Source of the DNA: Candidatus Aenigmatarchaeota archaeon
GTDB taxonomy: Archaea; Aenigmatarchaeota; Aenigmatarchaeia; QMZP01
Direction of reading: 5' to 3'
Assembly (NCBI GenBank): GCA_016198585.1
Contig: JACQII010000012.1
Coordinates: 1 to 48,596 of the forward strand
DNA: 48,596 bases
A model generated the notes under the pieces. The model saw only the letters and a program-made list of their open reading frames with translations, had not been told where the DNA came from and made no database searches. Shown here one piece after another: positions 26,208-47,724 of this stretch (its first letter is position 1; every line of letters begins with the position of its first letter). A program made the position numbers and the translations under genes.

Positions 26208-27494
26208 ATGGCTACGTGGGACGTGCACGACTACGGGGACTGGATCAGGCAGGCGCGGAAGCGGATCGCGGAGGACCCGATCGCCGAAGAGGACAAGGAG
26301 CTGCTGCTCGCCTTCGATCGGTTCTGCGTCGTCCAGGGCCTGAGCGTCCCGCGGCGCGCGAAGCTGCTCCGCCACCTGCGCGACGCCGCCCGGGAGTTCC
26401 TCCCGGTCCCGTTCCGCCAGGCCACGAAGCACGACCTGCAAGAGGCGATCGCCCGCCTCGAGTCCCGAGCCGGGTACTCGCTCTGGACCAAGCACGACGT
26501 CAAGATCGCGCTGCGGAAGTTCTACAAGTGGCTCGTCTTTGGGGACGACGCGCTGACGCGCGAGGACTGGCCCGAGATCGTCGCCTGGATCAAGCCGGCG
26601 ATGAAGCGGCGGGACCTTTGCCGCGTCCGCGCGGCCGACCTCCTCACGACCGACGAGGTCGAGCGCATCGTCCAGGGCAGCCAGAACCCGCGCAACCGGG
26701 CCTTCCTGGCCGTCCTGTACGAGATCGGAGGCCGCATCGGCGAGGTCGGCTGCCTGCGCGTGGGCGACGTCACGCGCGACGAGTACAGCCTGCTGCTCGA
26801 CCTGGACGGCAAGACCGGGAAGCGCACGGTCCGAGTCGTCCAGTACGCAAGCCACCTCGTCGCCTGGCTCAACCTCCATCCCGGCCGGGCCGACCCTGGA
26901 CGGCCGCTCTGGCCCTCGCTGCGGCCGCCGACCTATCTGCAGCCGCTGCCCTACCGCGAGTTCTCGTCCTGGATCAAGCGCGCCGCCCAGGACGCAGGCG
27001 TGACCAAGCGCATTTACCCGCACCTCTTCCGCCACTCGCGCGCGACCCACCTTCTGGCCTCGGGCAGCCTGAACGAGGCCCAAGCCAAGGTGTTCTTCGG
27101 CTGGGTCGCGGACAGCCGCATCCTCTCCACGTACGCGCACCTCGTCACCAAGGACGCCAACGACGCGATCTTGCGCATGTACGGCGTCCAGCACGGCCAG
27201 GAGGCGAAGCGCGCCTTGGGCCTGACCTGTGGGATGTGCCAGGCGCCGAACCCGACCGGCGCGGCCCTCTGCTACCGCTGCGGCTACGCGTTGGGCATCA
27301 CCGCGGCTGACGACGTGCGGGCGCGTACCGACCGCGCAGAGGACTTGATGGCGCGCTTCCTGGCACGGCCCGAAGTGCGCGAGCTCTTCAAGGCGATGGT
27401 CCGCGACGAGCTGCGCCATGAGAACAGCGCACCTCCTCCACCAAGTCCTCCACGACCCGCACCCAGGCCGGAAGACGATCGCGCTGCTGCGTGA
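26208..27494 (+). CDS. Tyrosine recombinase/integrase with C-terminal zinc ribbon
   Basis: 428 residues. An N-terminal SAM-like core-binding domain (about 40-130) precedes the catalytic domain: first Arg in YEIGGRIGEVGCLRVGDV, HLFRHSRATHLLASG (His-x-x-Arg), the later conserved position in FFGWVADSRI and the nucleophile Tyr in LSTYAHLV. After the catalytic domain is a CGMCQAP...CYRCGY zinc ribbon and an acidic/proline-rich tail, an arrangement common in archaeal plasmid and viral integrases. SD-like GGAAGGTGA immediately precedes the ATG. It is the first gene of the element. Target site unknown. Confidence 0.9.
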   Translation: MATWDVHDYGDWIRQARKRIAEDPIAEEDKELLLAFDRFCVVQGLSVPRRAKLLRHLRDAAREFLPVPFRQATKHDLQEAIARLESRAGYSLWTKHDVKIALRKFYKWLVFGDDALTREDWPEIVAWIKPAMKRRDLCRVRAADLLTTDEVERIVQGSQNPRNRAFLAVLYEIGGRIGEVGCLRVGDVTRDEYSLLLDLDGKTGKRTVRVVQYASHLVAWLNLHPGRADPGRPLWPSLRPPTYLQPLPYREFSSWIKRAAQDAGVTKRIYPHLFRHSRATHLLASGSLNEAQAKVFFGWVADSRILSTYAHLVTKDANDAILRMYGVQHGQEAKRALGLTCGMCQAPNPTGAALCYRCGYALGITAADDVRARTDRAEDLMARFLARPEVRELFKAMVRDELRHENSAPPPPSPPRPAPRPEDDRAAA

Positions 27495-29521: not shown

Positions 29522-29528
29522 TGTGCCC

Positions 29529-29863: not shown

Positions 29864-30907
29864 CTACGGAGCATCCATCACCCACAGCCGCCGTTCATTC
29901 CGCCGGCCGGCGGCCTGCTCCTCGCGCAGCAGGCGCGCCGTGACGAGGAACTGCTTGTAGTGGCTGAACGTCCGGCGGGCCATCGGCTCGAGGCCGGTCT
30001 GGCGGACCTGCTGCAGGTAGCGGCGGTGGAGGTCCCGGATGGAGATGCCCGGGACCTCGTTGACGATCGCGTGGAGCAGCCGGTGGTGCTCGGACAGCGT
30101 CCGGAGCAGGTAGCCCTTCCTAACGGACTGGCTGTGCTGGAGGGCGGCCTGGAGGTCCTCTGGCCGGACCTGGGGGACCCGGTGGCGCTCGGCCAGGCAG
30201 GCTGCCACTCGGAGGGCCTGGATGGCGACCCGCGCGTCGCCCCCGCTCGCCTCGGCGATCCGGACGAGGTCGGCCTCGCACCAGGCGTCCGGCGCCAGCG
30301 CTGCTTCAGCCCGGGCGCGCAACAGGCTCGCGAGCTGGGGGGCGCCGTACGGCCCGCACTCCACGAAGCGCGGCTGCAGCCGCGACCGGACCCGCGGATC
30401 GAGGTCGTGGAACGCCTTCCGGTGCTGGCTCACGCACACCAGGGACGTGTGGTCGAGGCTCGCGAGGTTGTAGAGGGCGACGTTGCGCTCCTTGGGGAAC
30501 ATCTGGTCGACCTCGTCCAGCACGATGACCAACGGGCCCTCGCGCGCGATGCGCACGAGCCGCTCGATCCGGTAGGCCAGCTCGCGCTTCTCCTGGACCA
30601 GGGCACGCAGTTCCTGGAACGCTGCCTCGAGCACGGCGAAGAACGACTGGTTCCCCCAGCAGTTCACGTAGGCCGTCCGAACGTGCCGCTCCTCGAGCTG
30701 GGCGAGAGCCTGCTGGGCGAGCGAGGTCTTGCCCGAGCCGGGCGGGCCGTGCAGCCACAGGTGCAGGGGTTGCCGCGCGGCGGCGTCGACCAACCCGCGC
30801 AGCTCGTAGGCCTGCTCCTCACGGCCCGCGAGCGCGGCCGGGCGGAACCCATCAGAGAGCGGCTCGGTCGCCCGCACGACCGCGGGCAGTGCAGTTGTCG
30901 GCAACAT
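29864..30907 (-). CDS. Orc1/Cdc6-type AAA+ replication initiator
   Basis: 347 residues. AAA+ core: Walker A GPPGSGKTS (about residues 54-62), Walker B VIVLDEVDQMF (about 128-138), sensor region LVCVSQHRKAF and sensor 2 in SGGDARVAIQALR. A C-terminal winged-helix domain (about 255-345: HRLLHAIVNEVPGISIRDLHRRY) binds origin DNA. Archaeal plasmids and viruses carry such initiators; alternatively it is a chromosome-type paralogue. TATA-like CTTGTTTAAGAA (30929-30940) is 27 bp upstream. This suggests an archaeal, self-replicating ancestor of the element. Confidence 0.88.
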   Translation of the reverse strand: MLPTTALPAVVRATEPLSDGFRPAALAGREEQAYELRGLVDAAARQPLHLWLHGPPGSGKTSLAQQALAQLEERHVRTAYVNCWGNQSFFAVLEAAFQELRALVQEKRELAYRIERLVRIAREGPLVIVLDEVDQMFPKERNVALYNLASLDHTSLVCVSQHRKAFHDLDPRVRSRLQPRFVECGPYGAPQLASLLRARAEAALAPDAWCEADLVRIAEASGGDARVAIQALRVAACLAERHRVPQVRPEDLQAALQHSQSVRKGYLLRTLSEHHRLLHAIVNEVPGISIRDLHRRYLQQVRQTGLEPMARRTFSHYKQFLVTARLLREEQAAGRRNERRLWVMDAP

Positions 30908-31303: not shown

Positions 31304-31383
31304 CCTACCATGAAAGGAATCGCGGCGCACGGAAAGGACTCCATGAGCCGCGATCTCCTTTCCCGGTGGCGAGGATGAACTTC

Positions 31384-31794: not shown

Positions 31795-32334
31795 ATGCGC
31801 CAGGAGTCGTCCTTCCGAGCCGGGACCTACCGCGGCTACCACGTCAGCACGCGCCTCGTGCGCACGGGCGGTCGGCGCTACGAGCCCTTCCCGGTCCGCG
31901 ACGCCGACGACGTCTACTCGTTCCTGCGCGAACTGGAGCGCTACGACCGCGAGGTCTTCTACGCGCTCCATCTGGACACGAAGAACCAGCTCATCGGGTG
32001 CGAGGAGGTCAGCAAGGGCTGCCTGTCCTGGTCCGTCGTCCATCCCCGCGAGGTCTATAAGGGCGCGATCCTGAACTCTGCCGGGGCCGTGATCGTCGCG
32101 CACAACCACCCGTCCGGGGACCCGACGCCGTCGCCGCAGGACCGCGATGTCGTGCAGCGGCTCTACAGCGTGGGTGAGCTGCTCGGGATCCCGCTGCTGG
32201 ACAGCGTCGTGATCGGGGACGGGCGCTACACGAGCATGCGGCGAGAGGGCGGCGCGTTCGCCAAGGCCCCCAATCCGGTGCGCGAAGCACTCCAGCCGTA
32301 CGGTCAGCAGCCGGATCGTGCGGAGAACGCTTGA
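31795..32334 (+). CDS. RadC-like JAB/JAMM-domain protein
   Basis: 179 residues, corresponding to the JAB1/MPN core of RadC (UPF0758) without the N-terminal helix-hairpin-helix. The JAMM metal site is HNHPSGDPTPSPQD (about residues 103-116), preceded by the conserved Glu-containing segment GCEEVSKG and HPREVYKGAI. RadC-like proteins are frequent on mobile elements of bacteria and haloarchaea and may be nucleases or isopeptidases; the role is unsettled. Start at MRQESSFRAG, as sequence upstream in the same frame is not RadC-like. Confidence 0.85.
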   Translation: MRQESSFRAGTYRGYHVSTRLVRTGGRRYEPFPVRDADDVYSFLRELERYDREVFYALHLDTKNQLIGCEEVSKGCLSWSVVHPREVYKGAILNSAGAVIVAHNHPSGDPTPSPQDRDVVQRLYSVGELLGIPLLDSVVIGDGRYTSMRREGGAFAKAPNPVREALQPYGQQPDRAENA

Positions 32335-34131: not shown

Positions 34132-34152
34132 GGCAACAATTTGGGCAACAAT
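34132..34152 (+). repeat. Right arm repeats of the attachment site (2 x GGCAACAAT)
   Basis: GGCAACAAT at 34132-34140 and 34144-34152, 12-bp period, identical orientation to the left pair, overlapping the start of the integrase reading frame. Binding of integrase here would also repress its own gene. Confidence 0.6.
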
Positions 34153-35226
34153 CCTGGCGTGGAACCCGCCCGGAACAGCCCGCCCCGGACCAGCCGGAAG
34201 CCGCCCCAGCGGAAGGCCCGGCTGAGCAACATTGCCGCCCGGCGGACGGCCGCGGGCTGGAGGTGGCGTGCCAACTGGTTCCACGACAGCGTTCGCGAGT
34301 GGGGCCCTATGCGGGCCAGCCAGGAGGAAGCCTACCAGGACTTCCTGGCCATGCGCGGACACCGGCAGGAGCTGCCGAAGGCCGTCCTCACGCTGAAGGA
34401 GGCGATCGACCGGCTGATCGAGGTCTCGCGGAACAAGGGCCTCGCCGAGCAGACGATCGAGGACCACTACCGCGCACGCGGCAAGCTCTTCCTGTCGGCC
34501 TGGGCCCCGGACACCCTGCTGAGCCGGATCGACCGCAAGGAGGTCGAGTGGTTCATCAAGGTGCGCCGCGAGAAGCACAGCGTGACCGACTCGACCATCT
34601 ACCACGACCTCGCCGTCCTCCACCGGCTGTTCGAGGTGACCGGGACGCCGAACCCGGTCAAGGACGTCGAGCGTCCCAAGCCGCGCGAGGCCAAGCGCGC
34701 CTTCTTCACCAAGGCGGAGGTTGAGCAGGTCATCGCGAAGGTCCGCGGCTCGGGCCTGCCGGCCTCCAAGCGCCACGCCGACGTGCTGACGCTGCTGTTC
34801 GCCACCGGCATGCGCGCCACCGAGGTCGAGCGGCTGCGCGTCAAGGACGTCGAGCTGGGCCACGGCCGCATCTGGGTCCGCGGCAAGAACAAGCCGCGCG
34901 AGCTGCCGATCGCGAGCCACCTTCGGCCAGTGCTGGCCCGCCTCGTCAAGGACGGCGACCCCGAGGAGCCCATCATCCCGGGCGGGGCCTACTACCTCGC
35001 GCGCATGTGCAAGGTGTGGCAGGCCCGGCTCAAGCTGCCCGCGCTCTCGGCCCGCGCGCTCCGCCACTCCTTCGCGACCGCCCTGCTGGACGGCGGCTGC
35101 CCGGTCCACGTCGCGCAGCAGCTCATGGGCCACGCGGATCTCGAGACGACGGCCCGCTACCTCCACACGCGGGATCAGTCCCTGCGCGACGCCGTCGAGC
35201 TGCTCCGGCAAACGCCGGCTGCCTGA
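34141..35226 (+). CDS. Tyrosine recombinase/integrase (second)
   Basis: About 361 residues. N-terminal basic segment, SAM-like domain (about 85-175: LKEAIDRLIEVSRNKGLAEQ, HYRARGKLFL) and catalytic domain: Arg in LLFATGMRATEVERLRV, Lys strand in WVRGKNKPRELPI, ARALRHSFATALL (H-x-x-R), QQLMGHADLETTARYLH with the nucleophile Tyr. A XerC/D-like phage integrase. The start is uncertain: TTG 34141 and GTG 34159 are in frame, and the frame is open back to the tRNA-like core. It abuts the att site and faces two HTH genes that may encode excisionases. Confidence 0.9.
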   Translation: MGNNPGVEPARNSPPRTSRKPPQRKARLSNIAARRTAAGWRWRANWFHDSVREWGPMRASQEEAYQDFLAMRGHRQELPKAVLTLKEAIDRLIEVSRNKGLAEQTIEDHYRARGKLFLSAWAPDTLLSRIDRKEVEWFIKVRREKHSVTDSTIYHDLAVLHRLFEVTGTPNPVKDVERPKPREAKRAFFTKAEVEQVIAKVRGSGLPASKRHADVLTLLFATGMRATEVERLRVKDVELGHGRIWVRGKNKPRELPIASHLRPVLARLVKDGDPEEPIIPGGAYYLARMCKVWQARLKLPALSARALRHSFATALLDGGCPVHVAQQLMGHADLETTARYLHTRDQSLRDAVELLRQTPAA

Positions 35227-35443
35227 TGACCAGCCGCTGCCTCGCCAGCTGATCGGCCGGCTCGGTCCAACGGCCGTCGAGCCAGGCGTCGAGATCTTCG
35301 GCCCGGACCCGGTAGTGCCGGCGCGACAGCCGCAGCAGCCGGGGGAACCGCCCCAGCGCGCTCCAGCGCTTGAGGGTCGCCGGCGGGACACGGAGGCGCC
35401 GGGCAACCTCGTCGAGCGTGAGCAATTCCTCATGGCCGTCCAT
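35123..35443 (-). CDS. HTH_17 / excisionase-like DNA-binding protein (1)
   Basis: 106 residues; N-terminal MerR-like helix-turn-helix: ELLTLDEVARRLRVPPATLKRW, then GRFPRLLRLSRRHYRVRAEDLDAWLDG. This is the excisionase (Xis/AlpA) pattern. It starts inside the end of the preceding HTH gene (14-base overlap) and runs about 100 bases antisense into the integrase 3' end; the C-terminal Arg/Gly-rich part may not be folded. Confidence 0.72.
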   Translation of the reverse strand: MDGHEELLTLDEVARRLRVPPATLKRWSALGRFPRLLRLSRRHYRVRAEDLDAWLDGRWTEPADQLARQRLVIRQPAFAGAARRRRAGTDPACGGSGPSSRDPRGP

Positions 35444-35711
35444 GGTCCGGCAGCCTCGCGGATGGAGACGCGTCGTCGGCCGTGCCGGCGAGGGTCGCCG
35501 TGAGCCGGCGGAGGTCGTCCAACCGATAGCGGACCGTCCTCCGCGAAGCCGTGCCGGTCCCGATGCGCACGCACGGCAGCAGGCCGGCCCGAGTCCACCG
35601 GCGGATCGAGGTCGGATGGACGCGGAAGTAGGCGGCCGCTTCCTGCGTGGTGAGCAGCTCGCCCGAGACAGCTTCGTGCTCAGCATGCTCGAAGGGTTCA
35701 CGTGCGTGCAT
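35430..35711 (-). CDS. HTH_17 / excisionase-like DNA-binding protein (2)
   Basis: 93 residues: ELLTTQEAAAYFRVHPTSIRRW (HTH), AGLLPCVRIGTGTASRRTVRY and LDDLRRL, again the excisionase-type winged helix. A GGAGG sits six bases before the ATG. The two HTH proteins are paralogues in tandem, possibly acting as a heterodimeric directionality factor for the adjacent integrase. Confidence 0.75.
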   Translation of the reverse strand: MHAREPFEHAEHEAVSGELLTTQEAAAYFRVHPTSIRRWTRAGLLPCVRIGTGTASRRTVRYRLDDLRRLTATLAGTADDASPSARLPDHGRP

Positions 35712-35759
35712 CGACGATCCTCCGCGCGCGCCAGCGATCACCTGCATGCATTCTCGTGC

Positions 35760-36624: not shown

Positions 36625-37551
36625 TCACGAGGCTGCATCGCGCGCCTCCTTCGCGGCCGCGCGCCAGCGGGCCACAAGGTCGGCCCAGCGGAACTGGCGC
36701 TTCTCGATGGCCGCCGCGTCGGTGATGAGGACCTTCCGATGGACGAGCGCGCGCAGCTCGGCCGTCGCGCCCAGAGGATCGGGCCGGTCAGCAGCCGCCG
36801 GCGCGGGCAGCCCAGCGTCGGGCAGCGGCGCTCCCGCAGCGCGGTCGCCCGTAGGCCCGGCCACCAGGGCCGCGAGCGTGCGACGCACCATGCCAGCCTT
36901 CGCGCGCGTGGCCGCGACGAGGACGGCGCCGTCGACCGTCCGGTCGGCCGCCAGCCGCGCGAGCCGGTCGGCCTCGTAGGCGGCCGTGTTCGCGTCGCAA
37001 ACCTGGATCGCGATGCGCAGGCCGTCGTCCAGGACCAGGAGACGGTCGGGCAGGACGCCGCTGATGTTCCCCGGGCGGATGCTGCGCGCGCCTTCGACGT
37101 CGCGCGTGAACGATCCCTCCGACCGCCGGCACAGGGCCTCGTGGAGCGTGCCCGTGTCCTCCTTCAGGAGCGGGATCCCACGCTCGCGGGCCCAGTCCTT
37201 GCCTTTTTCCGTGAGGCCGAAGAGCGGCTGCTTGCCGATCGCGCCCGTCCTGGTGATGAACCCCGCCTTCAGCAGGAAGCTGCGGGCCCGCCCTTCGGCG
37301 TTGCGGTCCATGCCCAGGGCGTCGGCGCGCTCGTCGATGGTCGCTTCCGGATGGCGCGCGACATGCTCCAGCAGGCGGGCGCAGTCGTCGCTCAGGGCGG
37401 GCGTGGAGGGCTTCTTGGGTCGTGCTGGTGGCACGGGCGTCGGCAGCGGCAGGGGGCCGGCGCGCGGCACGACGGCGCGGTTCAACTCCTCAAGGCTGCG
37501 GCGCGCCACCTCGGCGAGGGTCGGGCGCGGCCTCTCGTGCTCAGCGCTCAT
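36625..37551 (-). CDS. Winged-helix plus nuclease-fold protein resembling Replic_Relax relaxases
   Basis: 308 residues. Pro-rich N-terminus, then a wHTH (about 55-120: CARLLEHVARHPEATIDERAD, LKAGFITRTGAIGKQPLF, LTEKGKDWARE), then a domain with LHEALCRR, GVLPDRLLVLDDGLRIAIQV and YEADRLARL: an H...PD...(I/V)xV pattern like the restriction-endonuclease-like fold of Replic_Relax proteins in actinobacterial and archaeal conjugative elements. Those nick or bind the transfer origin beside a TraG/HerA ATPase, and such an ATPase is encoded just upstream here. Family assignment is inference. SD CGGAGGG before ATG. Confidence 0.5.
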   Translation of the reverse strand: MSAEHERPRPTLAEVARRSLEELNRAVVPRAGPLPLPTPVPPARPKKPSTPALSDDCARLLEHVARHPEATIDERADALGMDRNAEGRARSFLLKAGFITRTGAIGKQPLFGLTEKGKDWARERGIPLLKEDTGTLHEALCRRSEGSFTRDVEGARSIRPGNISGVLPDRLLVLDDGLRIAIQVCDANTAAYEADRLARLAADRTVDGAVLVAATRAKAGMVRRTLAALVAGPTGDRAAGAPLPDAGLPAPAAADRPDPLGATAELRALVHRKVLITDAAAIEKRQFRWADLVARWRAAAKEARDAAS

Positions 37552-38014
37552 GCGTCCCTCCGGTGGAACCAAGGCACCGGGCCGCGCGCGCCCGGCGACC
37601 GGCGGCGCAATTGCGAGCCCCACCGACCGGTCCCGCGGCGAGCAACAGCGCCGTGACCAAGGACTGGCGCGCGGCCGAACCAAGGCGTGGCCGCGCGTCC
37701 CCGCAGCTCGCGCCGTGCCCGCAGCGCGAAGCGGCCGTACCCTCCCGCACGATGCCTGCCGTGCGGCGCGAGCCGAGGCCCAGCGGCCGCTTCGGAGGTC
37801 CCCACCTCCCGGGACGATCGCGACCGGCCGGGACCGCGTCGCGATGGTCCTTCGCCACTCGCCAACCCGAGACGGCCGCGCAGGCCGACGTCCTGGAGGC
37901 GCGGGCGACCGGCCAGTACGAGACGGCCGCTCCTTCCTGGCGGCTCGATCCGCCGCGCGTCGCGGACGCCTCGTCCACGTGCCGTCGGCCGGCGGACGAA
38001 CGACGACTCGTCAC
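37541..38014 (-). CDS. Doubtful protein filling the gap before the relaxase-like gene
   Basis: GTG start overlaps the stop of the preceding gene (GTGA) and the end overlaps the next start by 11 bases, as in the rest of this gene train, but the translation is Arg/Gly/Ala-rich with no fold visible. A rival minus-strand frame ends exactly at ATGA of the next gene. Alternatively the ~460 bp are non-coding and contain the transfer origin; GGCCGCTCCT-type repeats occur there. Confidence 0.25.
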   Translation of the reverse strand: MTSRRSSAGRRHVDEASATRGGSSRQEGAAVSYWPVARASRTSACAAVSGWRVAKDHRDAVPAGRDRPGRWGPPKRPLGLGSRRTAGIVREGTAASRCGHGASCGDARPRLGSAARQSLVTALLLAAGPVGGARNCAAGRRARAARCLGSTGGTHER

Positions 38015-38256
38015 GGCCGCTCCTGCGTCGGCGGCGTCGTGTTCGCACCTGGCGCCCGCTGCTTCCGCTTGGCCGGCCGGCGCACCCGCTTCGGTCGGAC
38101 GCCGCCGTTCTCCGGGTCCCACTCGAGGCCCTGCGCGTCCAGCATCCGCACCAACATGAGCCCGGCCGCCCGGCCGGCGCTGAGCAGGGCGGCCCGCCGT
38201 TGCGGACTCAGCTTCTTGGCGGCCTCGGGGTCGATCTTCACGATCACGCGCTGCAT
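38011..38256 (-). CDS. Small basic protein, 81 residues
   Basis: MQRVIVKIDPEAAKKLSPQR, a helical middle (AALLSAGRAAGLMLVRMLDA) and a Lys/Arg-rich tail. SD GGAGGTG lies within the end of the ATPase gene, which it overlaps by 13 bases. It could be an accessory DNA-binding protein for the transfer ATPase. Confidence 0.55.
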   Translation of the reverse strand: MQRVIVKIDPEAAKKLSPQRRAALLSAGRAAGLMLVRMLDAQGLEWDPENGGVRPKRVRRPAKRKQRAPGANTTPPTQERP

Positions 38257-39551
38257 GGAGCACCTCCTGGAAAGGGAATGGTCAATCGGAACGGGTGGGG
38301 AAGCCGGTCGCCGGACAGGCGCGCGATGCACTGGCCGGGCGGCAGCGTCGTGAGCTCGCGCGCTTGCCGGTCGTTGAGGCCGAGGAGCCGCGCGACGTGC
38401 AGCAGCTCGGGCGGCGAGCTGTTGAACGCCAGCTTCAGCCGGCAGGCGGTGACGACGGCAGGGCTGACCATCGACACGACCTGCTCGCTGACCAGGAACC
38501 CGATGCCGAGCGCGCGCGATCTGCTGAAGAGCAGCTCGATGTCCGCGATCATCGCCGCATCCCGCGGCTGGAGCCGGATCAGGTTGCGCTGCTCGTCGAG
38601 CGAGATCAGGACGGTGCGCTGCGCGAACGGCTGGTCGCTGCGCAGCCGCCGGTGGTACAGCCAGAACAGCCTGCACGTGGTGACGAAGTCCGCGAGCATC
38701 TTGTCGACGCGCATGTCGACGATGACGAGCCGGCCGTCCTCGGCCGCCTGCATCAGTGGGAGTCCACGCTGCACGCTGAAGAGGCGCGCGCCGCCCATGA
38801 CCAGCAGGGCGTGCAGCCGCGCGACCAGGCGGTCGCGGTAGCCTTCTTCGCTCGACCGGGGCGTGTGCTTCTTGCTGCGCGCGAGCTCGTACAGGTCCAG
38901 CAGCGTCGGGATCGTGCCCTGGGCTTCCGCGCGCAGCGCCAGCTCCTCGAGCAGGCCGAGGCAGTACGCCTGCCCGGCCGTCTGCAACCCCAAGTCCAAC
39001 GTCAGGCGCGCGGACACGATCGGCATCCACTCGCGGAGCGTGACGCCCGGTGGCGGCTCAAGCGGGTTGAACCGGTCCTCGCCCTGCGGCACGTAGAGCG
39101 CGCCGGGCACGCGCAACGCCAGCGACATCAGGTCGCCGCGTACGTCGGCGGCGTACGTCCCGTCGCCGCAGCGGTTGGCCTCCTCCACGACCCGGCTCAG
39201 CGCGGTCGTCTTTCCGCTCTTCGGCGCGCCGACGAAGAGGATGCCGGTGTCCAGTTCGTCGAGGCCGTAGTGGAAGAAGGGCTGGTCGGGCAGCTCGGTG
39301 CGCCCCACGGCGACGCCGTCCGCGCCCAGTCGGTCGGCGCGCGGGTGCGGGTGGAAGTCGTCCGCGGGATCCAGCCGCAGCGCGATGGCCTTCGCGATGA
39401 GTCGCCGTCGCAGCAGGTCGCGCATCGCCGGCAGGCGGATCGCCTTCTCACGGAGCTGGTCGGCGTCCGGCCAGTACGGCGCGACGGCGTCCACGAGCCG
39501 CTCGAGGCTCATGGCATCCCATCCGGACGGCGCGGGTTGCTGCATCGCCAC
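38244..39551 (-). CDS. HerA/VirD4(TraG)-class DNA-pumping ATPase
   Basis: About 435 residues. Walker A GAPKSGKTT (about 108-116), an acidic strand TYAADVRGDLMSLAL, DRFNPLEPPPG, Walker B-like RLVIVDMRVDK and a second strand TVLISLDEQRNLIR (arginine-rich sensor), then RALGIGFLVSEQV. This is the FtsK/HerA/VirD4 family, coupling proteins that pump DNA in conjugation, packaging or repair. The VFxxE-type segment and absence of membrane helices favour a VirD4-like coupling protein without anchor. The start GTG/ATG is right after the stop of the small Cys-rich protein. Confidence 0.8.
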   Translation of the reverse strand: MAMQQPAPSGWDAMSLERLVDAVAPYWPDADQLREKAIRLPAMRDLLRRRLIAKAIALRLDPADDFHPHPRADRLGADGVAVGRTELPDQPFFHYGLDELDTGILFVGAPKSGKTTALSRVVEEANRCGDGTYAADVRGDLMSLALRVPGALYVPQGEDRFNPLEPPPGVTLREWMPIVSARLTLDLGLQTAGQAYCLGLLEELALRAEAQGTIPTLLDLYELARSKKHTPRSSEEGYRDRLVARLHALLVMGGARLFSVQRGLPLMQAAEDGRLVIVDMRVDKMLADFVTTCRLFWLYHRRLRSDQPFAQRTVLISLDEQRNLIRLQPRDAAMIADIELLFSRSRALGIGFLVSEQVVSMVSPAVVTACRLKLAFNSSPPELLHVARLLGLNDRQARELTTLPPGQCIARLSGDRLPHPFRLTIPFPGGAPCSA

Positions 39552-39552
39552 G

Positions 39553-40014
39553 TCAGCCGTTTCCGCCGAGGCCCTTGAGGAACCAGACGATGCCGCGCCC
39601 CGCGGCTTTCGCCGCGCCCACGGCCGCCGCGGCCGCGACGGCGCTCGCCACGTGGCGCGTGCACCAGCTCTGGCCCTTGAACGAGACGCTGTGCGCGCCG
39701 CAGACGACGTGGCCTCGGCCGCACATCCGCGCGCAGCCTTCGCGCGAGCACAGCAGCGCGCCGCAAACCTGGCACGCGCCGGCGATCTCGCCGAGTTCGC
39801 CGCCCACCATGTGGCCGCGATCGCACGAGTAGGTCGTGACGTGGCGCAGGCTGAGCAGGCCGTCCTCGGTCTCCACCTCGGCCTGATCGTCGGCGAACAG
39901 CTCGCCGGCCTTCGAGGCGCGGCCGCCGTGCCCGCGGATCACCACCTTGCGCGCTCCCGGCGCGTACTTCTTGACCAGCTCCTCGTAGTCTTCGCGCGTC
40001 AGCGGCCTCTTCAT
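39553..40014 (-). CDS. Cys/His-rich protein with C-terminal membrane segment
   Basis: 153 residues. The middle holds YSCDRGHM, CQVCGALLC, CARMCGRGHVVCGAH and WCTRH, about ten Cys/His ligands in a RING- or treble-clef-like array. The C-terminal AVAAAAAVGAAKAAGRGIVWFLKGL is hydrophobic and may enter the membrane. Overlaps its upstream neighbour by four bases (ATGA) and its stop is two bases before the ATPase start. A zinc-binding membrane adaptor for the ATPase is a guess. Confidence 0.65.
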   Translation of the reverse strand: MKRPLTREDYEELVKKYAPGARKVVIRGHGGRASKAGELFADDQAEVETEDGLLSLRHVTTYSCDRGHMVGGELGEIAGACQVCGALLCSREGCARMCGRGHVVCGAHSVSFKGQSWCTRHVASAVAAAAAVGAAKAAGRGIVWFLKGLGGNG

Positions 40015-40742
40015 GGCAGGCCGTCCGCGAACGGATCGAGCGGGTCATCCAGCGGGTCCAGCTCGACGTGCCCGAGTGCAGCGTCCTGGCCGGCGATCAC
40101 CACGCCGTCCGGCAGGCCGCGACCGAGGTGCATCGTCGTGGTCGGCGGCGTGACCACATCCATGCCCGCCGGCGGCTGGACGTCCGCAGTCGCCGGCACG
40201 TCGGCGAGGCCGCCCGCCACGTCGACATCGCGCTCAGGCAGGATTTCGTCCGGCTTGAGCGTGACCTTCCAGTCGGCGGTACCGGCAGCCGACATCTCGG
40301 CGCGCGACCAGGACGGGTTCCTGACCTCCATCCCGGGAAGCTCGATGGGGCGCAGCTTGATCGCGACCTCGTGCTGATCCCAGTCCTGCTCGAGCTGGAA
40401 CCCGATCTCGTCCAGGCCGACCTCCTCGGCCGGGCGCTCCGTCGCCTGCGGAACCGAAGGCAACTCCTCGAGGTCGCGGCCGCGCGCCACCAGCCCATCC
40501 GGCAGCCGCATCGAGGTCTCGTGCCGTTGCTCAGGCACTTGGTCACTTGACGACGTGACCACCTCGGTCCGGCGGCCGGGGACGACGACGCCGGATCCGG
40601 TCCGCGCGCCGACCTTGCTCTGGCGACGCCGGCGGCGGAGGCAGCCGTCTCGCTTCGTGCAGCCGAACTGCTCGCGCCCGGGCTTGCACGGCTTGCCGAG
40701 CTTCTCGTCCTTCTCCCAGCAGTCGACGACGCGGTCGGTCAT
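40011..40742 (-). CDS. Hypothetical acidic protein with Cys-rich N-terminus, 243 residues
   Basis: Starts MTDRVVDCWEKDEKLGKPCK, with C at 8, 19, 28 and 34 (a small CHCH-like or zinc fold), then an Arg-rich patch and a long acidic/hydrophobic beta-like region (GFQLEQDWDQHEVAIKLRPI, GTADWKVTLKPDEILP), ending DPLDPFADGLP. No family recognised. Part of the coupled gene train before the transfer ATPase. Confidence 0.55.
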   Translation of the reverse strand: MTDRVVDCWEKDEKLGKPCKPGREQFGCTKRDGCLRRRRRQSKVGARTGSGVVVPGRRTEVVTSSSDQVPEQRHETSMRLPDGLVARGRDLEELPSVPQATERPAEEVGLDEIGFQLEQDWDQHEVAIKLRPIELPGMEVRNPSWSRAEMSAAGTADWKVTLKPDEILPERDVDVAGGLADVPATADVQPPAGMDVVTPPTTTMHLGRGLPDGVVIAGQDAALGHVELDPLDDPLDPFADGLP

Positions 40743-40935: not shown

Positions 40936-42432
40936 TCACGACGCCGCGCTTCCCGCCCCGTTCGTGGCGAGGTCGATGGTCGCCTGCTTCTTCGAGTGCG
41001 TGTCTTCCGCCACGACGTGCACGATCCCGTCGGGGTCGTAGCGGTAGGCCACCTTGACCCGGCGCTCGGCCGGGCCGTTCGGCTGAAGCGGGAGCGTGAC
41101 CTCGCCGATGACGTGGCACGCCTCCGGCACGGCGCCCTCTTCGCCCTGGACGACCACCACGTTGGCGATGGTCTGCCCGGGCTCGAGGAGCCCAAACACG
41201 TCAGACCGCTCCGTCGGAATGGGCGTGTTCCGGGGGATGATGACTGCGCACTGCAGCCTTCCGGTCCGCTGGTTGATCGCGAAGCAGCCCAGATCGTGCG
41301 CGCAGACGTCGATCTTGGCGACGCTCGGCGGCAGCACCTCGACGCCGTCCGCCGTCGTGGCCTCGCCCAGCTCCTTCAGCCGCAGCGCGGCCTCGATCGC
41401 GTTGCCACGCGCGACCGCGTGGTCCGGATCCACGTCGGCCAGCGGCGGCTTGCCCGACGCCTGCTGGATGATCGCCTTCACCAGCGGCGTGCGGCTGGCC
41501 CCACCTACCAGGACTACATCTACATCGGCCCACCTCGCGCCGCCCGCCTTGAGCACGGACGCGCACGTCGCGATGGTCGGCGCAATGATCGGACGGGCCA
41601 GCGACTCGAAGGCGTCGCGCGAGACCTTGGCGATGAGCGCCTTGCCGTTGAGGCCCGCGGAGATCGTCGTCTCCTGCCGCGAGCTCAGGGCGAGCTTTCC
41701 GCGCTCGCACGCCAGGCGCAGATCCTGGCAGAAGGCCGGGTGCTGCTCGGGCGTGGGGCGGTAGCCGTGCTCGCGCTCGAACAGGTCGAGGCAGTGCCCC
41801 TCGAGCGCGGCCAGCAGGTCGTTGCCGCCACAGCGCGCGATGCCCTCGGTGGCCAGGACCTCGACCCGGTCGGCCTCGACCTGCAGGAGCGTCGCGTCGA
41901 AGGTCCCGCCGCCGAGGTCGTAGATCAGGACCTTGCGGCCGGGCTTCTTCTCCATCGCGTACGCCAAGGCGGCGGCCGTGGGCTCGTGGATCAGGCTGAT
42001 GACCGTCACGCCAGCGGCCCGACCGGCGGCGAGCATCTCGCGGCGCTGCTCGTCCCGGTAGTTCGCCGGGATCGACAGAACCACGTGCGTCACGCGCTCA
42101 CCGATCCGCTGCTCGGCGTACGCCAGCAGCCGGCTGAGGGCCAGGGTCATGAGGTCGCCCGCCGAGTGTTCCTTCCCGTCGGGCGCGCGGAACCGCCACT
42201 GCGGGTTTCCGATCTCGCGCTTCCACCCGGCGACGAAGCCCTTCGGCTCGAGGATCGCCGCGTTGAAGGCCTCCTGGCCGAAGATGACCTCGCCAGCTCC
42301 GGTGAAAAGGACCGCCGTTGGCGTACTGCTGAAGCCGAGGTCGTTCGCGATGTCCTCAGGCCGCCCGGTCGCTGCCAGTCGGGCCAGCTTGCAGTAGGTC
42401 GTGCCGAGGTCGACGCCAATCATGGACGTCAT
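40936..42432 (-). CDS. Hsp70-family (DnaK-like) chaperone, lid-less
   Basis: 498 residues. Nucleotide-binding domain: IGVDLGTTYCKLA (phosphate 1), VVLSIPANYRDEQRREMLAA, HEPTAAALAYA, LIYDLGGGTFDATLL (phosphate 2), VVLVGGASRTPLVKAI (adenosine) and ARGNAIEAAL. A beta substrate-binding domain follows (about 385-490: QCAVIIPRNTPIPTERSDVF, HVIGEVTLPLQPNG). The alpha-helical lid of DnaK (about 100 residues) and the EEVD-like tail are absent. DnaK normally has ~600+ residues. The ATG overlaps the stop of the GrpE-like gene. No J-domain (HPD) protein is seen in the window. Chaperone or assembly/disassembly ATPase of the element's transfer or replication apparatus. Confidence 0.9.
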   Translation of the reverse strand: MTSMIGVDLGTTYCKLARLAATGRPEDIANDLGFSSTPTAVLFTGAGEVIFGQEAFNAAILEPKGFVAGWKREIGNPQWRFRAPDGKEHSAGDLMTLALSRLLAYAEQRIGERVTHVVLSIPANYRDEQRREMLAAGRAAGVTVISLIHEPTAAALAYAMEKKPGRKVLIYDLGGGTFDATLLQVEADRVEVLATEGIARCGGNDLLAALEGHCLDLFEREHGYRPTPEQHPAFCQDLRLACERGKLALSSRQETTISAGLNGKALIAKVSRDAFESLARPIIAPTIATCASVLKAGGARWADVDVVLVGGASRTPLVKAIIQQASGKPPLADVDPDHAVARGNAIEAALRLKELGEATTADGVEVLPPSVAKIDVCAHDLGCFAINQRTGRLQCAVIIPRNTPIPTERSDVFGLLEPGQTIANVVVVQGEEGAVPEACHVIGEVTLPLQPNGPAERRVKVAYRYDPDGIVHVVAEDTHSKKQATIDLATNGAGSAAS

Positions 42433-43013
42433 GGCTGTGCTGCTCCTTGAACTGAGATGGATGCCTGCTCACTTCTGCGCGCTGAGATGCGCTGGTCCCG
42501 CACGACGACGGCGGCCGGACGGACGGCGACGGTCCCCCGCGCGGTCTCGCGCACGACGGCCGGCCTGCGCACGTCCGCAATCGTCAGGTGCTCGTCCGCG
42601 CTTGCCGCGGGAACGATCTCCACGGCCTGTGCAACCTTCGGATCAAAACGGCCTGCGGGGACATCGATGCGCATGCCCGCGCTTGCGAGCGTCTCGCGCA
42701 TCTCACAGTAGAGCTGCTCGATGAACAGCTCGGGCTGCTCCCGACCGCCGGCATCCGGCAGGGGCATCCTGGCCCAGACGAGGTCAACCAAGGCGATGAG
42801 CCGCACCTCAAGCTCCGTGGCCCCGTCCGCGGCAACATCGATCCGCCGGCCCCACACGGCAGATAGTTCGCTCGGGGTCACTTGGTTGACGCGCAGCAGC
42901 ACGAGCTGCTGCTCGAGACGAAGGATCCGATCCTGCAGCCGCCGCAGTGCCGAGCGCGTGACCGTTTCGCTGGCCATCCGATCTCGCGCTTTCCCGCCTC
43001 GCACCCAAGCCAT
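42429..43013 (-). CDS. GrpE-like nucleotide-exchange factor
   Basis: 194 residues. Helical N-terminus (RRLQDRILRLEQQLVLLR, a coiled coil), then ELEVRLIALVDLVWARMP and YCEMRETLASAGMRIDVPAG followed by FDPKVAQAVEIVPAAS, VRETARGTVAVRPAAVVV. The latter is the GrpE beta-wing pattern (FDP...AV..VP..., G...RPA.V.V). Immediately before Hsp70 with a four-base overlap. Divergent from housekeeping GrpE, so it should serve the neighbouring Hsp70. Confidence 0.75.
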   Translation of the reverse strand: MAWVRGGKARDRMASETVTRSALRRLQDRILRLEQQLVLLRVNQVTPSELSAVWGRRIDVAADGATELEVRLIALVDLVWARMPLPDAGGREQPELFIEQLYCEMRETLASAGMRIDVPAGRFDPKVAQAVEIVPAASADEHLTIADVRRPAVVRETARGTVAVRPAAVVVRDQRISARRSEQASISVQGAAQP

Positions 43014-43017
43014 CGAT

Positions 43018-43842
43018 TCACCCTTCCCTTGCCGCGGTCAGGATGCGGGCCAGCAGGCCGACAGAGAGGTATGCGGCCGCCAGTTCACCGAACCGGACGT
43101 CACCACAAGCTGTGGCCGCGTCCTTGGCGCCCTTCGCCAGCAGGAACCCAGACGCCGACGCCTGCTCGCGAGCGCTCGCCGCCTTTGTTCTCTGGAGGTT
43201 CAGGTGGCTGACGAGGTGATACACCCAGCCGCCGCCGTGGCGAAACCGCACGGCAATCGGGTCGTCGCCGTACCTGCGTCCCATCTCCCTGGACTGGATG
43301 AGCACGTCGACATCGCGCTTCCGCAGGATTCGGATCGGGTGGCTCGACAACTCCAGCCACCAGCGCGGCTCATCACCCGGGGTCACCAGGTCGCCGAGGA
43401 ACCGCTGTCCAGCGTCTCCAAGCTCGACGGAAACGACGTCGTCCGCCGTTCGTTGACCGTTGGCTTCGATGAAGCATGGGAAAGCCTCCTCCACGACGTC
43501 GAAGAGAGCCCAGTCCGTCGTCACTATGGTGCCGCCTCCGGCAACGAAGCGGCGCAGTGACTCGACGTCCACTTCGTCTCCGGAAGTAGAGCAGTTCACA
43601 ATGATCGTGCGCACCCGCCTCAGGTCGGCAGCGCAGCGCTTCGAACGCCTGACGCTCCGGTACGGCACGGACAATGCCCCGAGCACGTCCTCCGCACGGT
43701 CGTAGTTGCCTGCAACCACAAGGGTGTGCGCCGAAGCGAGCCGGTTGAGCTGATCAAGTTCGCGTCTTCCGCTCAGTGCGAGCGTCTCGCGGTAGCCGCG
43801 CGCGGCGGCTGCATAGGCTGGCAACATGTGGGTCATCGTCAT
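43018..43842 (-). CDS. GATase-I-like Rossmann-type protein of unknown function
   Basis: 274 residues. A helical start (AYAAAARGYRETLALSGR) leads to alternating strands: TLVVAGNYDRAEDVLGAL, TIIVNCSTSGDEVDVESL, FVAGGGTIVTTDWALFDVV, with HGGGWVYHLVSHLN near residue 205; this is the pattern of class-I glutamine-amidotransferase-like / DUF4159-like domains in bacteria, without a clear catalytic Cys (NCSTSG is the elbow-like position). SD AGGAGG; ATG at 43842 or 43836. Sits four bases before the GrpE-like gene, so it is part of the chaperone operon. Confidence 0.55.
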   Translation of the reverse strand: MTMTHMLPAYAAAARGYRETLALSGRRELDQLNRLASAHTLVVAGNYDRAEDVLGALSVPYRSVRRSKRCAADLRRVRTIIVNCSTSGDEVDVESLRRFVAGGGTIVTTDWALFDVVEEAFPCFIEANGQRTADDVVSVELGDAGQRFLGDLVTPGDEPRWWLELSSHPIRILRKRDVDVLIQSREMGRRYGDDPIAVRFRHGGGWVYHLVSHLNLQRTKAASAREQASASGFLLAKGAKDAATACGDVRFGELAAAYLSVGLLARILTAAREG

Positions 43843-43861
43843 CTCCTCCTAGTTGTCTTGC

Positions 43862-44176
43862 TCAGCAGGCTGGGCACGCCCACGGCCCAAGGCGCTCCCT
43901 GACCACCTGCTCGGTCGGGTCAACCATCAGCGGAGCAGGCGATGTCGGCCAGCGTCGCGCCGCCTCCCGGCACACAGCACCCTTGAGTGCCAGGACCTCG
44001 TGGTCGGACAGGCACGCCAGCGAGCGGATCACGTCCGCCACGTGCGGACGCACGACGTCGGCCTGGATCCCACCGTCGTGCGCTCCGTTACCCTCGTCCG
44101 AACCCAGGGGGCGCGAAGTCCTGTCGGAGCCGTCGTCTCGATGATTGTACTTTAAACTCAAACCCGTGCTCCTCAC
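43862..44176 (-). CDS. Small hypothetical protein, 104 residues
   Basis: GTG start overlaps the SprT-like stop (GTGA). The middle and end are plausible: RPHVADVIRSLACLSDHEVL, ALKGAVCREAARRW, then WACPAC at the C-terminus, a final CxxC knuckle. The first 35 residues are less ordered. No family recognised; linkage to SprT-like and GATase-like genes suggests a common function. Confidence 0.45.
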   Translation of the reverse strand: MRSTGLSLKYNHRDDGSDRTSRPLGSDEGNGAHDGGIQADVVRPHVADVIRSLACLSDHEVLALKGAVCREAARRWPTSPAPLMVDPTEQVVRERLGPWACPAC

Positions 44177-44799
44177 CACGCCGCTTTCGCACGCTTGAGT
44201 CGCTGTCCGCAGCGCAGGCACTGCATCTCCAGCTCCACAGCGGCACGCACGTTCGTGCAGGCACAACTCCACTTGTTCTGCGTGCTCGTCCCCTCGGGAC
44301 GCTGCTCGTCCTTGTCGTCCTCTAACAGCGGCCCGGTATCCACGCCATGTTCCTCCAGCAGCTTGGTGAAAGGCCCTTGCTGAACTTGAACCGTGCATCC
44401 TCGTGCGTCCACAACGAGGCCGTACGAGGCGGCCTTCTTCCTGAACTCGGCATTGTGATAATTGCGCTTGCCCGGCTTTCCATGCAGGCGCTGCCACAGG
44501 TGGAGAAGCTCATGGAACACCGTTTCCAGGAGTTCGGCCCGAGGCTTGTCGAACCAGCGGTCGTTGATCGTCACCTCGTGCTGCACGCCCAAACCATTCC
44601 GGCCATTGCGGTAGCTGCCGAGTACATTCACGCGGAGCCGCTCCACGCGGATCGCGGGCGTCTGCAGCTCCAGGCCAAACCTGTCATCGAAGCGCTTAGC
44701 CCAGGCGTGCAGTTCCTGGACGAGTCCACGGTGTTCCCAGTCCTGCCGCGACGCCGCGTGGTCACGGAGGGCGCCGTTGATCGGCTCGGGCGTCAACAC
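44173..44799 (-). CDS. SprT-like zinc metalloprotease with C-terminal zinc ribbon
   Basis: 208 residues. HELLHLWQRLHGKPG carries HExxH (about residues 95-99), followed by NYHNAEFRKKAASYGL with the third His: the SprT/Spartan pattern. The C-terminal CACTNVRA...CLRCGQRLKR is the SprT-type zinc ribbon. Spartan relatives digest DNA-protein crosslinks; many element-borne ones are of unknown role. Starts with GTG, overlapping the stop of the upstream gene by a few bases. Confidence 0.85.
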   Translation of the reverse strand: MLTPEPINGALRDHAASRQDWEHRGLVQELHAWAKRFDDRFGLELQTPAIRVERLRVNVLGSYRNGRNGLGVQHEVTINDRWFDKPRAELLETVFHELLHLWQRLHGKPGKRNYHNAEFRKKAASYGLVVDARGCTVQVQQGPFTKLLEEHGVDTGPLLEDDKDEQRPEGTSTQNKWSCACTNVRAAVELEMQCLRCGQRLKRAKAAW

Positions 44800-45203
44800 G
44801 ACGGATGCTCCCGTCCGTTGCGCGCGTCATCATCCGTCTGAGGGGCCGCCTTCCCGGAGGACGGCTGATCCGCCCCCCTGCACGGACAGTCGGCTTGCAC
44901 TCCCATGCTGAGGAACTCGCGCACGGCAAGCCGCATCGCGTGCACACCGAGGTAGAAGGCCTTCTGCGCGGCCAGTCCGATCAACCGGTGCTGTTCCTCG
45001 CTGACTTGGCCCTGCACCTGTGCGGCAACGCCCAGGGACTCGCGGAGCTGCGCGGTTCCCGCCGCCGCAAGGTGCGGTTCGAAGGTGCCAATGTCCTCGG
45101 CGATCTTCCTGCGCTGCTCTTCGTCCTCTAGCTCGCGCCGCGCTCGCCATGCGAGGTCCGGCGTCACCAGGGCATCACCGCCCGCACGTCTGCCAGTACT
45201 CAT
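44793..45203 (-). CDS. Hypothetical helical protein, first gene of the long operon
   Basis: 136 residues, helical: RARRELEDEEQRRKIAEDIG, then LRESLGVAAQVQGQVSEEQH and KAFYLGVHAMRLAVREFLSM, with CPC near the C-terminus. Start at MSTGRRAGGDAL. It overlaps the SprT-like start by seven bases. No known family. It heads the coupled train running to 36.0 kb. Confidence 0.5.
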   Translation of the reverse strand: MSTGRRAGGDALVTPDLAWRARRELEDEEQRRKIAEDIGTFEPHLAAAGTAQLRESLGVAAQVQGQVSEEQHRLIGLAAQKAFYLGVHAMRLAVREFLSMGVQADCPCRGADQPSSGKAAPQTDDDARNGREHPSC

Positions 45204-45448: not shown

Positions 45449-46762
45449 ATGTCTCGCCGGCCGCACCGCCTGTCCCTGGATGCTCCGCTGCGGAGCTCGG
45501 AGCCGGACGGTGCGACGTTCGCAGCAGGCATACCTGCGGTACCGCAGGAGTACCGCCACCGTGAGGCAGCCTGGCTTGACGAGGTGGCCGATCTGACCCA
45601 CGGCAAGCCACCTCGGTGGCTCCGGGAGGTGTGGGAGTATTGCCCGAAACTCCGAATCAACGAGAAAGCTCTAGCGGCCCTTCGCGAGATCCGCAAGCAC
45701 TCGCATCCAGCGATGGCGAACGTGATCTCAGAGTATGCGCTAGACCTGAGACCAAGGCACCTCACACCATCCGGAAGAAGTAGGCAAACCGTTCCTCGTG
45801 GGTTCCTCACGTCCACGATTTCGGTATTCGGTGAACAGAGCACTTCACAGAAAGCACTCAGCACTATTAGGGAGAATCGGGCCCGGCTTAGGGCAAACGC
45901 CTTTGTCCAGCTTGCGTGCCAACACAGCCCGGCAACGTTCGACTACTTCGCCACTGCCATGTGTGACGGCTGGCATGGCCAATCGCTTCAGCCGCTGCTC
46001 AAGTCCAGGGTCGCATTAGAGTCTTCAAGATCACGCATCAGTCGCACGTTTCGTGAGGCCATTCCGACAATCCTCCCTGTCGAGTTCCGCGTGCCATTTG
46101 CGCCCGCAATGGCCCCTACCGACTACGACAGCCAGGCCGCCTTCTTCAATCTCAACTATCGTCTTACCCACTTAGAGGCGCTCTTCAGCCCTGAGACCGC
46201 CGTACAACGCCACGACAGCGACGAGTTTCCTCCTCCGCCTACGGAGTTCACTGATCCGAACGCGTACATGCTCCACAGACGTCACCAGCGACTCGGACAC
46301 CTGATCCCCTGCGCCCACCTCTGGCGGGGGTGGGTAAAGGAGTTGCTCAACTACGCAGCAGATGCAAACCGTCCCGAGGCCCGAGCCTTCGCAGCTTACT
46401 ACGGCCTCTATGCTGCGAATCAGCTCTCGGGCGACGACTACGGTCGCATCCTTTGCGCGGAGACAATTGTGGCGGCCTGGGACAAGACTGCCCTTCACGG
46501 CGTCATCCGAGAAACCTATGAGAATCTCTCGGAGCCGTGGTACCGAGAGAATCCCTACCATATGGCAATTAATCTTCTCCGCCTCGTCGTGTACTTGAAA
46601 GCATATCCGGGAGGCCAGCCATCGCTTTCTGATGGAAGACGCAAGACTATCGCGATCATCGCCCAGTGTGTTGACCACAGGCTCGGCTTCATTGAAGAAC
46701 GCCGCGCCGTACGTAACGAGGCACTCTATTTGTACACGCTTGCCACGCAGTCTCCTTCGTGA
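45449..46762 (+). CDS. Unrecognised 437-residue protein (first of a paired module)
   Basis: Helical, Trp/Tyr-rich; I recognise no family. Near residues 40-60 it has AAWLDEVADLTHGKPPRWLR, matching a block in the next protein (shared motif [WY]-[IL]-D-[DE]-V-x-[DE]-L-T-x3-P-P-R-W). Later PTDYDSQAAFFNLNYRLTHL, DPNAYMLHRRHQRLGHL and NPYHMAINLLRLVVYL look like structured helices. There is no Walker, nuclease or methylase motif. Base composition is a little lower in G+C than the operon to its left. 42 bp separate it from the second gene. Confidence 0.65.
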   Translation: MSRRPHRLSLDAPLRSSEPDGATFAAGIPAVPQEYRHREAAWLDEVADLTHGKPPRWLREVWEYCPKLRINEKALAALREIRKHSHPAMANVISEYALDLRPRHLTPSGRSRQTVPRGFLTSTISVFGEQSTSQKALSTIRENRARLRANAFVQLACQHSPATFDYFATAMCDGWHGQSLQPLLKSRVALESSRSRISRTFREAIPTILPVEFRVPFAPAMAPTDYDSQAAFFNLNYRLTHLEALFSPETAVQRHDSDEFPPPPTEFTDPNAYMLHRRHQRLGHLIPCAHLWRGWVKELLNYAADANRPEARAFAAYYGLYAANQLSGDDYGRILCAETIVAAWDKTALHGVIRETYENLSEPWYRENPYHMAINLLRLVVYLKAYPGGQPSLSDGRRKTIAIIAQCVDHRLGFIEERRAVRNEALYLYTLATQSPS

Positions 46763-46804
46763 CGAGGGCATTGGTTCAAATAGTCGCCAAGTCCACTGTG
46801 ACGT

Positions 46805-47710
46805 GTGGACCGCATCCGCGATCTCGGGCTTGGGAAACACTGGCAACCGATTATCGCTAGGGTCGAGAATCAGCACCGCACTCTCTACCGATACCTCAGC
46901 GATAGAGGCGTAGCCGACTACCTCACCAAGGACTGGCCCCACGAGATTCCCGGCTATGGCGTAGTGCTCAACTACGCGCGCACCAGCAAGCGAGGCCTCC
47001 ACCATCGCGTCTGTCACGGACTGTTTGCTCTGCACCGCCTCATTGGGCCGTATGAACCGCCGCCGCTAGGTCCCAAAGTACCGCGCGACATGCGCGAGCG
47101 CATCTCGAGCGAAGCAGGCACTCTGATCGCCCACGAGGGAGTCAGCATACCACGCTGGCCGCCACGGGCGATCGATCGGCAGGGAACTCCCTTCGATGCC
47201 AAGCGTGACTACGGGTGGCAGGACTTGAGTGAGTATCTCTCTACCGTGCCGGTCATGCTGCGCGCTGAACGCGAGATGGCCTCAGGGGTTTCGGAGCATT
47301 GGAAGCATCAGCAGGAGCATCTTGCTCGAGTCCTCGATGGAGCGCAGTGTGCACCACCCATGAGGCCCGACCTCCCGCTCTTCTACCTTAGCAAGGCATG
47401 GATGCCGCCAATCGACACGCCCCGGCTCCTCGGTAGCAGCTCGGGAGGGAGTGGAGGCGCTGCGGGTTATCGCGAGATGGCTCCCCACCTCGCCGTTGTG
47501 CGTGACACCATGCTCGCTGCCTACATCGACGATGTAAGTGAGCTAACTGGCACCCAGCCGCCTCGATGGGTCCGAGACAGCGCTTACCGCAGCAATGCCG
47601 AGCACCTTCGCGCCACCTTTCACGCAGTCTCGGGGTCTGGCTTCGACGCCGATCGAGAAACTGTTCGCGCATGGGCGCGAAGTCTCGGCCTTTCTGGTTG
47701 GGATGAGTAG
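46805..47710 (+). CDS. Unrecognised 301-residue protein (second of a paired module)
   Basis: Starts GTG (MDRIRDLGLGKHWQPII), continues with a Tyr/His-rich region (HRTLYRYLSDRGVADYL, HHRVCHGLFALHRLIG) and a Gly/Ser linker near residue 218. At residues 238-257 it carries AAYIDDVSELTGTQPPRWVR, the same motif as in the upstream protein, here followed by HLRATFHAVSG. No known domain. Converges on the zinc/nuclease-like gene. Two genes with the same peculiar motif suggests subunits that bind the same partner or each other. Confidence 0.62.
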   Translation: MDRIRDLGLGKHWQPIIARVENQHRTLYRYLSDRGVADYLTKDWPHEIPGYGVVLNYARTSKRGLHHRVCHGLFALHRLIGPYEPPPLGPKVPRDMRERISSEAGTLIAHEGVSIPRWPPRAIDRQGTPFDAKRDYGWQDLSEYLSTVPVMLRAEREMASGVSEHWKHQQEHLARVLDGAQCAPPMRPDLPLFYLSKAWMPPIDTPRLLGSSSGGSGGAAGYREMAPHLAVVRDTMLAAYIDDVSELTGTQPPRWVRDSAYRSNAEHLRATFHAVSGSGFDADRETVRAWARSLGLSGWDE

Positions 47711-47724
47711 CTCGGTCGCCCGTC

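Follow-up and report, generated by a model that had tools for sequence, protein, structure and literature searches.

How is an Hsp70 targeted and fired when no J-domain protein is encoded with it? J-proteins are described as obligatory Hsp70 partners. The question is raised by a gene array (45203-40936) in a 48,596-nucleotide stretch of DNA from a Candidatus Aenigmatarchaeota archaeon (GenBank assembly GCA_016198585.1, contig JACQII010000012.1, forward strand). This stretch, hereafter the window, is a complete contig of a 0.94 Mb archaeal genome that is 76% complete. The array encodes a lid-less Hsp70 together with a divergent GrpE and lies on an integrated element. We put at about 0.4 the probability that the cargo module of this archaeal plasmid-like element encodes a dedicated, J-independent Hsp70-GrpE switch that serves one fixed client; the probable client is the GATase1-like protein of the same array. 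Six collinear minus-strand genes were found:

44793..45203, minus strand: ORF-A, 136 aa, no family (zero Pfam matches).
44173..44799, minus strand: SprT-like metalloprotease, 208 aa, GTG start, with HELLH and a C-terminal Cys4 ribbon.
43862..44161, minus strand: ORF-B, ~99 aa, TTG start, no family; an open frame between the SprT-like and GATase-like genes and the least certain gene.
43018..43842, minus strand: GATase1-fold protein, 274 aa (AlphaFold, Foldseek, 25-row alignment).
42429..43013, minus strand: divergent GrpE, 194 aa (profile against shuffles, related-genome match).
40936..42432, minus strand: lid-less Hsp70, 498 aa, with a degenerate J-domain docking site (Pfam 3.4e-89, site comparison).

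The GrpE start lies 4 nt past the GATase-like stop, and the Hsp70 gene overlaps the GrpE gene by 4 nt (ATGA); the SprT-like gene overlaps ORF-A by 7 nt. Ribosome-binding-like sequences were located ahead of the GATase-like ATG (AGGAGGAG) and the Hsp70 ATG (AAGGAG). As read from the sequence, the GATase-like, GrpE and Hsp70 genes are tightly coupled, with predicted translational coupling of GrpE and Hsp70. The first-pass annotation had listed six minus-strand genes including a 498-residue lid-less Hsp70, a divergent GrpE directly upstream, a GATase-like and an SprT-like protein, and this was confirmed by coordinates, Pfam, profile and fold. Its observation that the window holds no J-protein also stands: an HPD motif was found in none of the predicted element genes, and PF00226 gave zero matches in the host genome (76% complete). 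A second Hsp70 was likewise not found in the host genome.

The Hsp70, its J-domain docking site and its GrpE

The Hsp70 matches PF00012 (3.4e-89) over residues 4-492, which cover the nucleotide-binding domain (NBD) and the beta part of the substrate-binding domain (SBD-beta). The protein ends there and has no lid (SBD-alpha). Sites are given in E. coli DnaK numbering. The ATP-site residues D8, T11, K70, E171, D194, T199 and D201, which characterise the Hsp70 superfamily, are all kept. On DnaK, the J-domain is contacted through R167 and Q378 (by D35), L391 (by H33), P419 (by P34) and D477 (by K48) (PMC8215388; PMC13012618). The window Hsp70 carries R167S, N170H, Q378E, L391K and D477R and keeps P419, so that it has neither the HPD-contact residues nor the alpha-helical lid of a J-dependent DnaK-type protein. 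N170 is here presumed to be part of the HPD-contact site.

Eighty comparators were used, comprising DnaKs of archaea and actinobacteria, HscA, HscC, and plasmid, phage and accessory Hsp70s. Among them R167 was invariant (80/80), N170 was changed in one, and Q378 and L391 were changed in two each. HscC, which is equally divergent, keeps all four residues. If columns are independent, the joint replacement of R167, N170, Q378 and L391 has a chance of ~4% at a mismatch of 44%; the four changes are thus not overwhelming statistically, and the argument from the docking site rests on the contrast with equally divergent Hsp70s. The window Hsp70 probably takes orders from a partner other than a J-domain protein, and the J-independence that had been proposed from the absence of a J-protein gene is strengthened by the loss of the HPD docking residues.

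The best identity of the window Hsp70, to actinobacterial DnaKs, was 35-37%, in line with the earlier expectation that it is not close kin of housekeeping DnaK. Chromosomal DnaKs of the phylum are mostly full length and ~32% identical to it, by which a housekeeping DnaK/GrpE identity was ruled out. An Hsp70 is present in only 28/156 genomes of the phylum, and a scan of viral contigs with the window Hsp70 yielded zero relatives.

Assignment of the GrpE was based on several comparisons. The Pfam match is weak (0.033) and covers the C-terminal beta domain only. A profile of 45 GrpEs gave 13.6 bits for the window protein, whereas the highest-scoring of 2000 shuffles reached 7.1; the FDP and RPA motifs are also in place. 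Its best match in the 156 related genomes was a GrpE (E 0.024) whose gene immediately precedes a dnaK. The helical part corresponding to the long dimerising helix fits by global alignment only, and weakly. A search against plasmids gave zero matches, and the AlphaFold model from the single sequence (pLDDT 47) was not used. Matches to urease-beta cover only ~30 residues and were taken as chance.

Neighbouring proteins and the integrated element

The GATase-like protein has no Pfam family. It was modelled with AlphaFold from 25 homologues (pLDDT 88.7), and Foldseek returned 55 matches at E <= 0.001, many of them GATase1/ThuA-like, which places it in the GATase1 fold. The place of the nucleophile Cys appears to hold Asp110, an invariant Asp (TDWAL/SDWAL) after the matching strand, as judged from the 25-row alignment and the model and not from a residue-by-residue superposition. 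Glutaminase activity would be unlikely with an Asp at the catalytic Cys place. Family motifs are WWLEGSSHPI and SDWAL. Homologues (28-42% identity, mostly full length) were recovered by plasmid search and genome scan from cyanobacteria, actinobacteria, myxobacteria and others; viral contigs gave zero relatives in protein and pair-alignment scans, and the window copy is the one member in 156 genomes of the archaeal phylum.

Neighbourhoods were compared at 27 other loci with this family (L051, L054-L079). A vWA protein was found at 14, KptA/Tpt1 at 8, ThiF at 7, AAA+ at 6 and a poly(A)-polymerase-like protein at 3; ubiquitin-like genes also occur among the neighbours of the bacterial family. Close actinobacterial and myxobacterial homologues adjoin ARPP-1, and one has RtcB. 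These bacterial loci look like an RNA-repair or conflict system.

The SprT-like protein matches PF10263 above the curated cut-off (1.6e-7), with HELLH (HExxH) in the domain, and phrog_6361 (5.1e-16). Relatives occur in phages and on 1472 plasmid records, of which 1205 are typed conjugative. The protein fits an element-maintenance role, and its plasmid/phage distribution gives no tie to the chaperone. PADLOC yielded zero matches for the operon proteins.

The first 26 kb of the window are archaeal chromosome, with GatD, GatE and a threonyl-tRNA synthetase with archaeal editing domain. Gene content and the small genome suggest a DPANN-like host. The integrated element begins at ~26 kb and somewhat differs in composition from the chromosomal part. 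Its two tyrosine recombinases, Orc1/Cdc6-type initiator, RadC, HTH protein and FtsK/HerA-type ATPase bear out the earlier view that the module is element-borne. Downstream of Hsp70 the minus-strand array runs on through small genes to the ATPase (39551-38244). Contig C85 of a same-family relative (G126) carries a sibling element (~5-18.5 kb); it shares the initiator, recombinase, HTH protein, ATPase and ATPase-adjoining protein and has no Hsp70, GrpE, GATase-like or SprT-like gene. Because the backbone is common to both and the chaperone module is absent from the sibling, the module is regarded as cargo on a recurring archaeal element. Instead of the module, small membrane and coiled-coil proteins are encoded ahead of the sibling's ATPase gene. 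The other features of the window element are:

26208..27494, plus strand: second tyrosine recombinase, carrying a zinc ribbon and located close to the element's left end (Pfam 6e-16).
29138-29557, minus strand: small retropepsin-like aspartyl protease homologue (weak, 1.5e-4), adjoining the Orc1/Cdc6 gene.
29864..30907, minus strand: Orc1/Cdc6-type initiator (TIGR02928 5.2e-39; sibling copy in G126:C85 33% identity, 1e-59).
31222-32334, plus strand: RadC-type JAB protein, long N-terminal extension.
34141..35226, plus strand: tyrosine recombinase (Pfam 1.5e-24; sibling in C85 6e-14).
35430..35747, minus strand: HTH_17/MerR-type (excisionase-like) protein (Pfam 2e-11; sibling in C85 3.4e-5).
36625..37683, minus strand: backbone protein, matching the C-terminal portion of the ATPase ORF of the sibling in C85 (E 6.7e-7).
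38244..39551, minus strand: FtsK/HerA-type ATPase of the backbone, 435 aa (sibling in G126:C85 34% identity, 5.9e-45; HerA_C weak).
39553..40014, minus strand: Cys-rich (zinc-ribbon-like) protein with hydrophobic C-terminus, 153 aa (weak zf-C2HC5 only).
40011..40742, minus strand: Cys-containing low-complexity ORF, 243 aa, no family.
45449-48477: three ORFs of considerable size, none with a family, that extend to the contig end (GC at third codon positions, GC3, 0.61-0.68, below the rest of the element).

GC3 is mosaic along the array: 0.92 in Hsp70, 0.77-0.78 in GrpE, GATase and SprT, and 0.66 beyond. The match of the element ATPase to the PADLOC model mad8 (1.8e-7) is probably due to common FtsK/HerA ATPase ancestry. 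Viral-contig scans with this ATPase, the ATPase pair alignment and the Orc1/Cdc6 pair yielded zero relatives. Zero exact 15-mers that could mark att repeats were common to 25.4-30 kb and 33-48.6 kb. A relaxase was found in none of the main element ORFs scanned; the scan covered part of the small ORFs, and the element runs on past the contig end. Assembly chimerism was considered since the composition of the right part differs; the sibling with the same backbone in a same-family genome argues against it for the backbone, and for the cargo at 40-48 kb it is less firmly excluded, although this part forms an unbroken array with the ATPase. Elsewhere in the host genome, contigs C4 and C12 (tetranucleotides) and C15 (67% GC) were composition outliers, and C15 and C10 also encode distant FtsK/HerA-type ATPases. 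The outlier contigs are possibly further elements or contaminants.

A proposed fixed-partner switch and its rivals

An Hsp70 that is lid-less, has lost its J-site, is apparently ATPase-competent and has its own GrpE suggests a fixed-partner switch and not a general chaperone. Such an Hsp70 would bind one fixed partner and not unfolded proteins at large. Because the GATase-GrpE-Hsp70 genes are coupled, the GATase1-like protein or its complex is nominated as the most likely partner; it would take the triggering role of the J-protein, while GrpE would reset the switch and the absent lid would allow fast, low-affinity exchange. Within this array, the SprT-like protein would serve for clearance, as a protease of plasmid type. 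The output would be an element-borne stress, RNA-damage or conflict response and not general folding, since the GATase-like family elsewhere adjoins RtcB, KptA/Tpt1, poly(A)-polymerase, ThiF, vWA/AAA+ and ARPP-1. It is an unlikely, broader proposal that the chaperone motor is interchangeable around a constant GATase1-fold sensor, which would replace the J-protein as targeting factor here and pair with vWA and AAA+ proteins in cyanobacteria.

Several results weigh against the fixed-partner switch. The GATase-GrpE-Hsp70 combination is a single instance: the sibling element is without the module, and Hsp70 and GrpE, as well as the SprT type of the window, are absent from 27/27 GATase-like loci, so that the GATase-chaperone association has been seen once. 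The tie of Hsp70-GrpE to SprT-like and GATase-like proteins that had been proposed was therefore not borne out as a conserved one by the neighbour check, with 0/27 loci and one family member in 156 genomes. The window Hsp70 also differs at 68/155 conserved columns (44%), and its GrpE-contact residues (GrpE signature and cleft salt bridge) are altered too; general divergence may therefore account for some of the change at the J-site. By the same alterations, the Hsp70-GrpE pair would either have co-diverged or have an exchange independent of the altered contacts. Because the genome is 76% complete, a J-protein may be present in the host and missing from the assembly.

It is possible, though rather unlikely, that the pair serves transfer or replication by remodelling the Orc1/Cdc6, recombinase or FtsK/HerA ATPase complex of the element; the GATase-like protein or the small proteins would then be adaptors. 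The model is DnaK/DnaJ/GrpE, which activates P1 RepA and acts on lambda O/P. In favour of this, the element ATPase belongs to the same minus-strand array as the module, SprT relatives are characteristically found on conjugative plasmids, and a Rhodococcus plasmid groups a short Hsp70, GrpE and FtsK-type ATPase. The sibling element, however, has initiator, recombinase and ATPase yet no Hsp70 or GrpE, from which the backbone needs neither, and the GATase-like family has no other link to replication or transfer genes. Of the transfer, replication or conflict role first suggested, transfer/replication is retained as one reading only, and the other loci of the GATase-like family suggest an RNA-repair/conflict setting.

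With no second Hsp70 in the host genome and one present in few genomes of the phylum, an acquired Hsp70-GrpE could be useful by giving a DnaK-less host general folding or stress capacity. General folding by Hsp70, however, depends on J-proteins and gains from the lid (PMC8215388). With docking residues and lid lost, no J-protein present, and full-length proteins in the phylum relatives that have DnaK, such a passenger role is improbable. Decay or free drift of the cargo, with the J-site lost since the gene is no longer strongly selected, would agree with the many differing conserved columns, the mosaic codon usage and the single occurrence, but is equally hard to favour: the catalytic residues are all kept, the frames are full and open with coupled translation and an adjoining GrpE, and equally divergent Hsp70s show no J-site replacement.

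Under the favoured fixed-partner reading, the locus provides a natural Hsp70 with an ATPase site and its own GrpE that has lost the J-docking residues, and thus a testable case of other ways of targeting and firing Hsp70. An uncharacterised GATase1-like family from loci of RNA-repair type would also be linked to a chaperone motor, and the recurring Orc1/Cdc6-recombinase-FtsK/HerA element of small-genome archaea gains chaperone cargo.

Comparison with known systems

HscC of E. coli is at a similar distance from DnaK as the window Hsp70 (160 vs 156 identities of 504) and has a similar NBD deletion. In contrast to the window protein, it keeps the four HPD-contact residues and the lid, and the J-proteins DjlB/DjlC are encoded nearby. 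The bacterial RNA-repair-type loci (cyanobacterial, actinobacterial and myxobacterial) have a homologous GATase1-like protein in common with the window; unlike the window, they carry vWA and, in some, AAA+ proteins, with no Hsp70, GrpE or SprT.

In GAP1-N2 GTPase-centred conflict systems, an accessory Hsp70 and GrpE are encoded together, as in the window, and some of these systems have an additional Hsp70 that lacks the peptide-binding domain (Kaur et al., eLife 2020, PMC7159879). They are set apart by the GAP1-N2 GTPase and by an FNIII protein with a DnaJ or TPR fusion, whereas the window Hsp70 keeps SBD-beta and loses only the lid. GAP1-N2 GTPase and FNIII domains were found in none of the window proteins scanned; the contig ends at 48.6 kb.

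A cassette on a Rhodococcus pseudokoreensis plasmid (NZ_CP070617.1, 69-76 kb, L048) lies next to a Tn7-like tniQ/recombinase region and encodes a short Hsp70, a TPR protein, a GrpE and an FtsK/SpoIIIE ATPase. Like the window, it combines a short Hsp70 (510 aa), GrpE and an FtsK-type ATPase, with no J-protein gene annotated in the stretch. The two Hsp70s are 35% identical and group together with a support of 0.94 (both long branches, small sample). The Rhodococcus Hsp70, however, keeps R167, N170 and Q378, and its cassette has the TPR protein and no GATase or SprT, both of which are present in the window. Accessory Hsp70-GrpE pairs are already known, the precedents being the GAP1-N2 loci and the Rhodococcus plasmid cassette.

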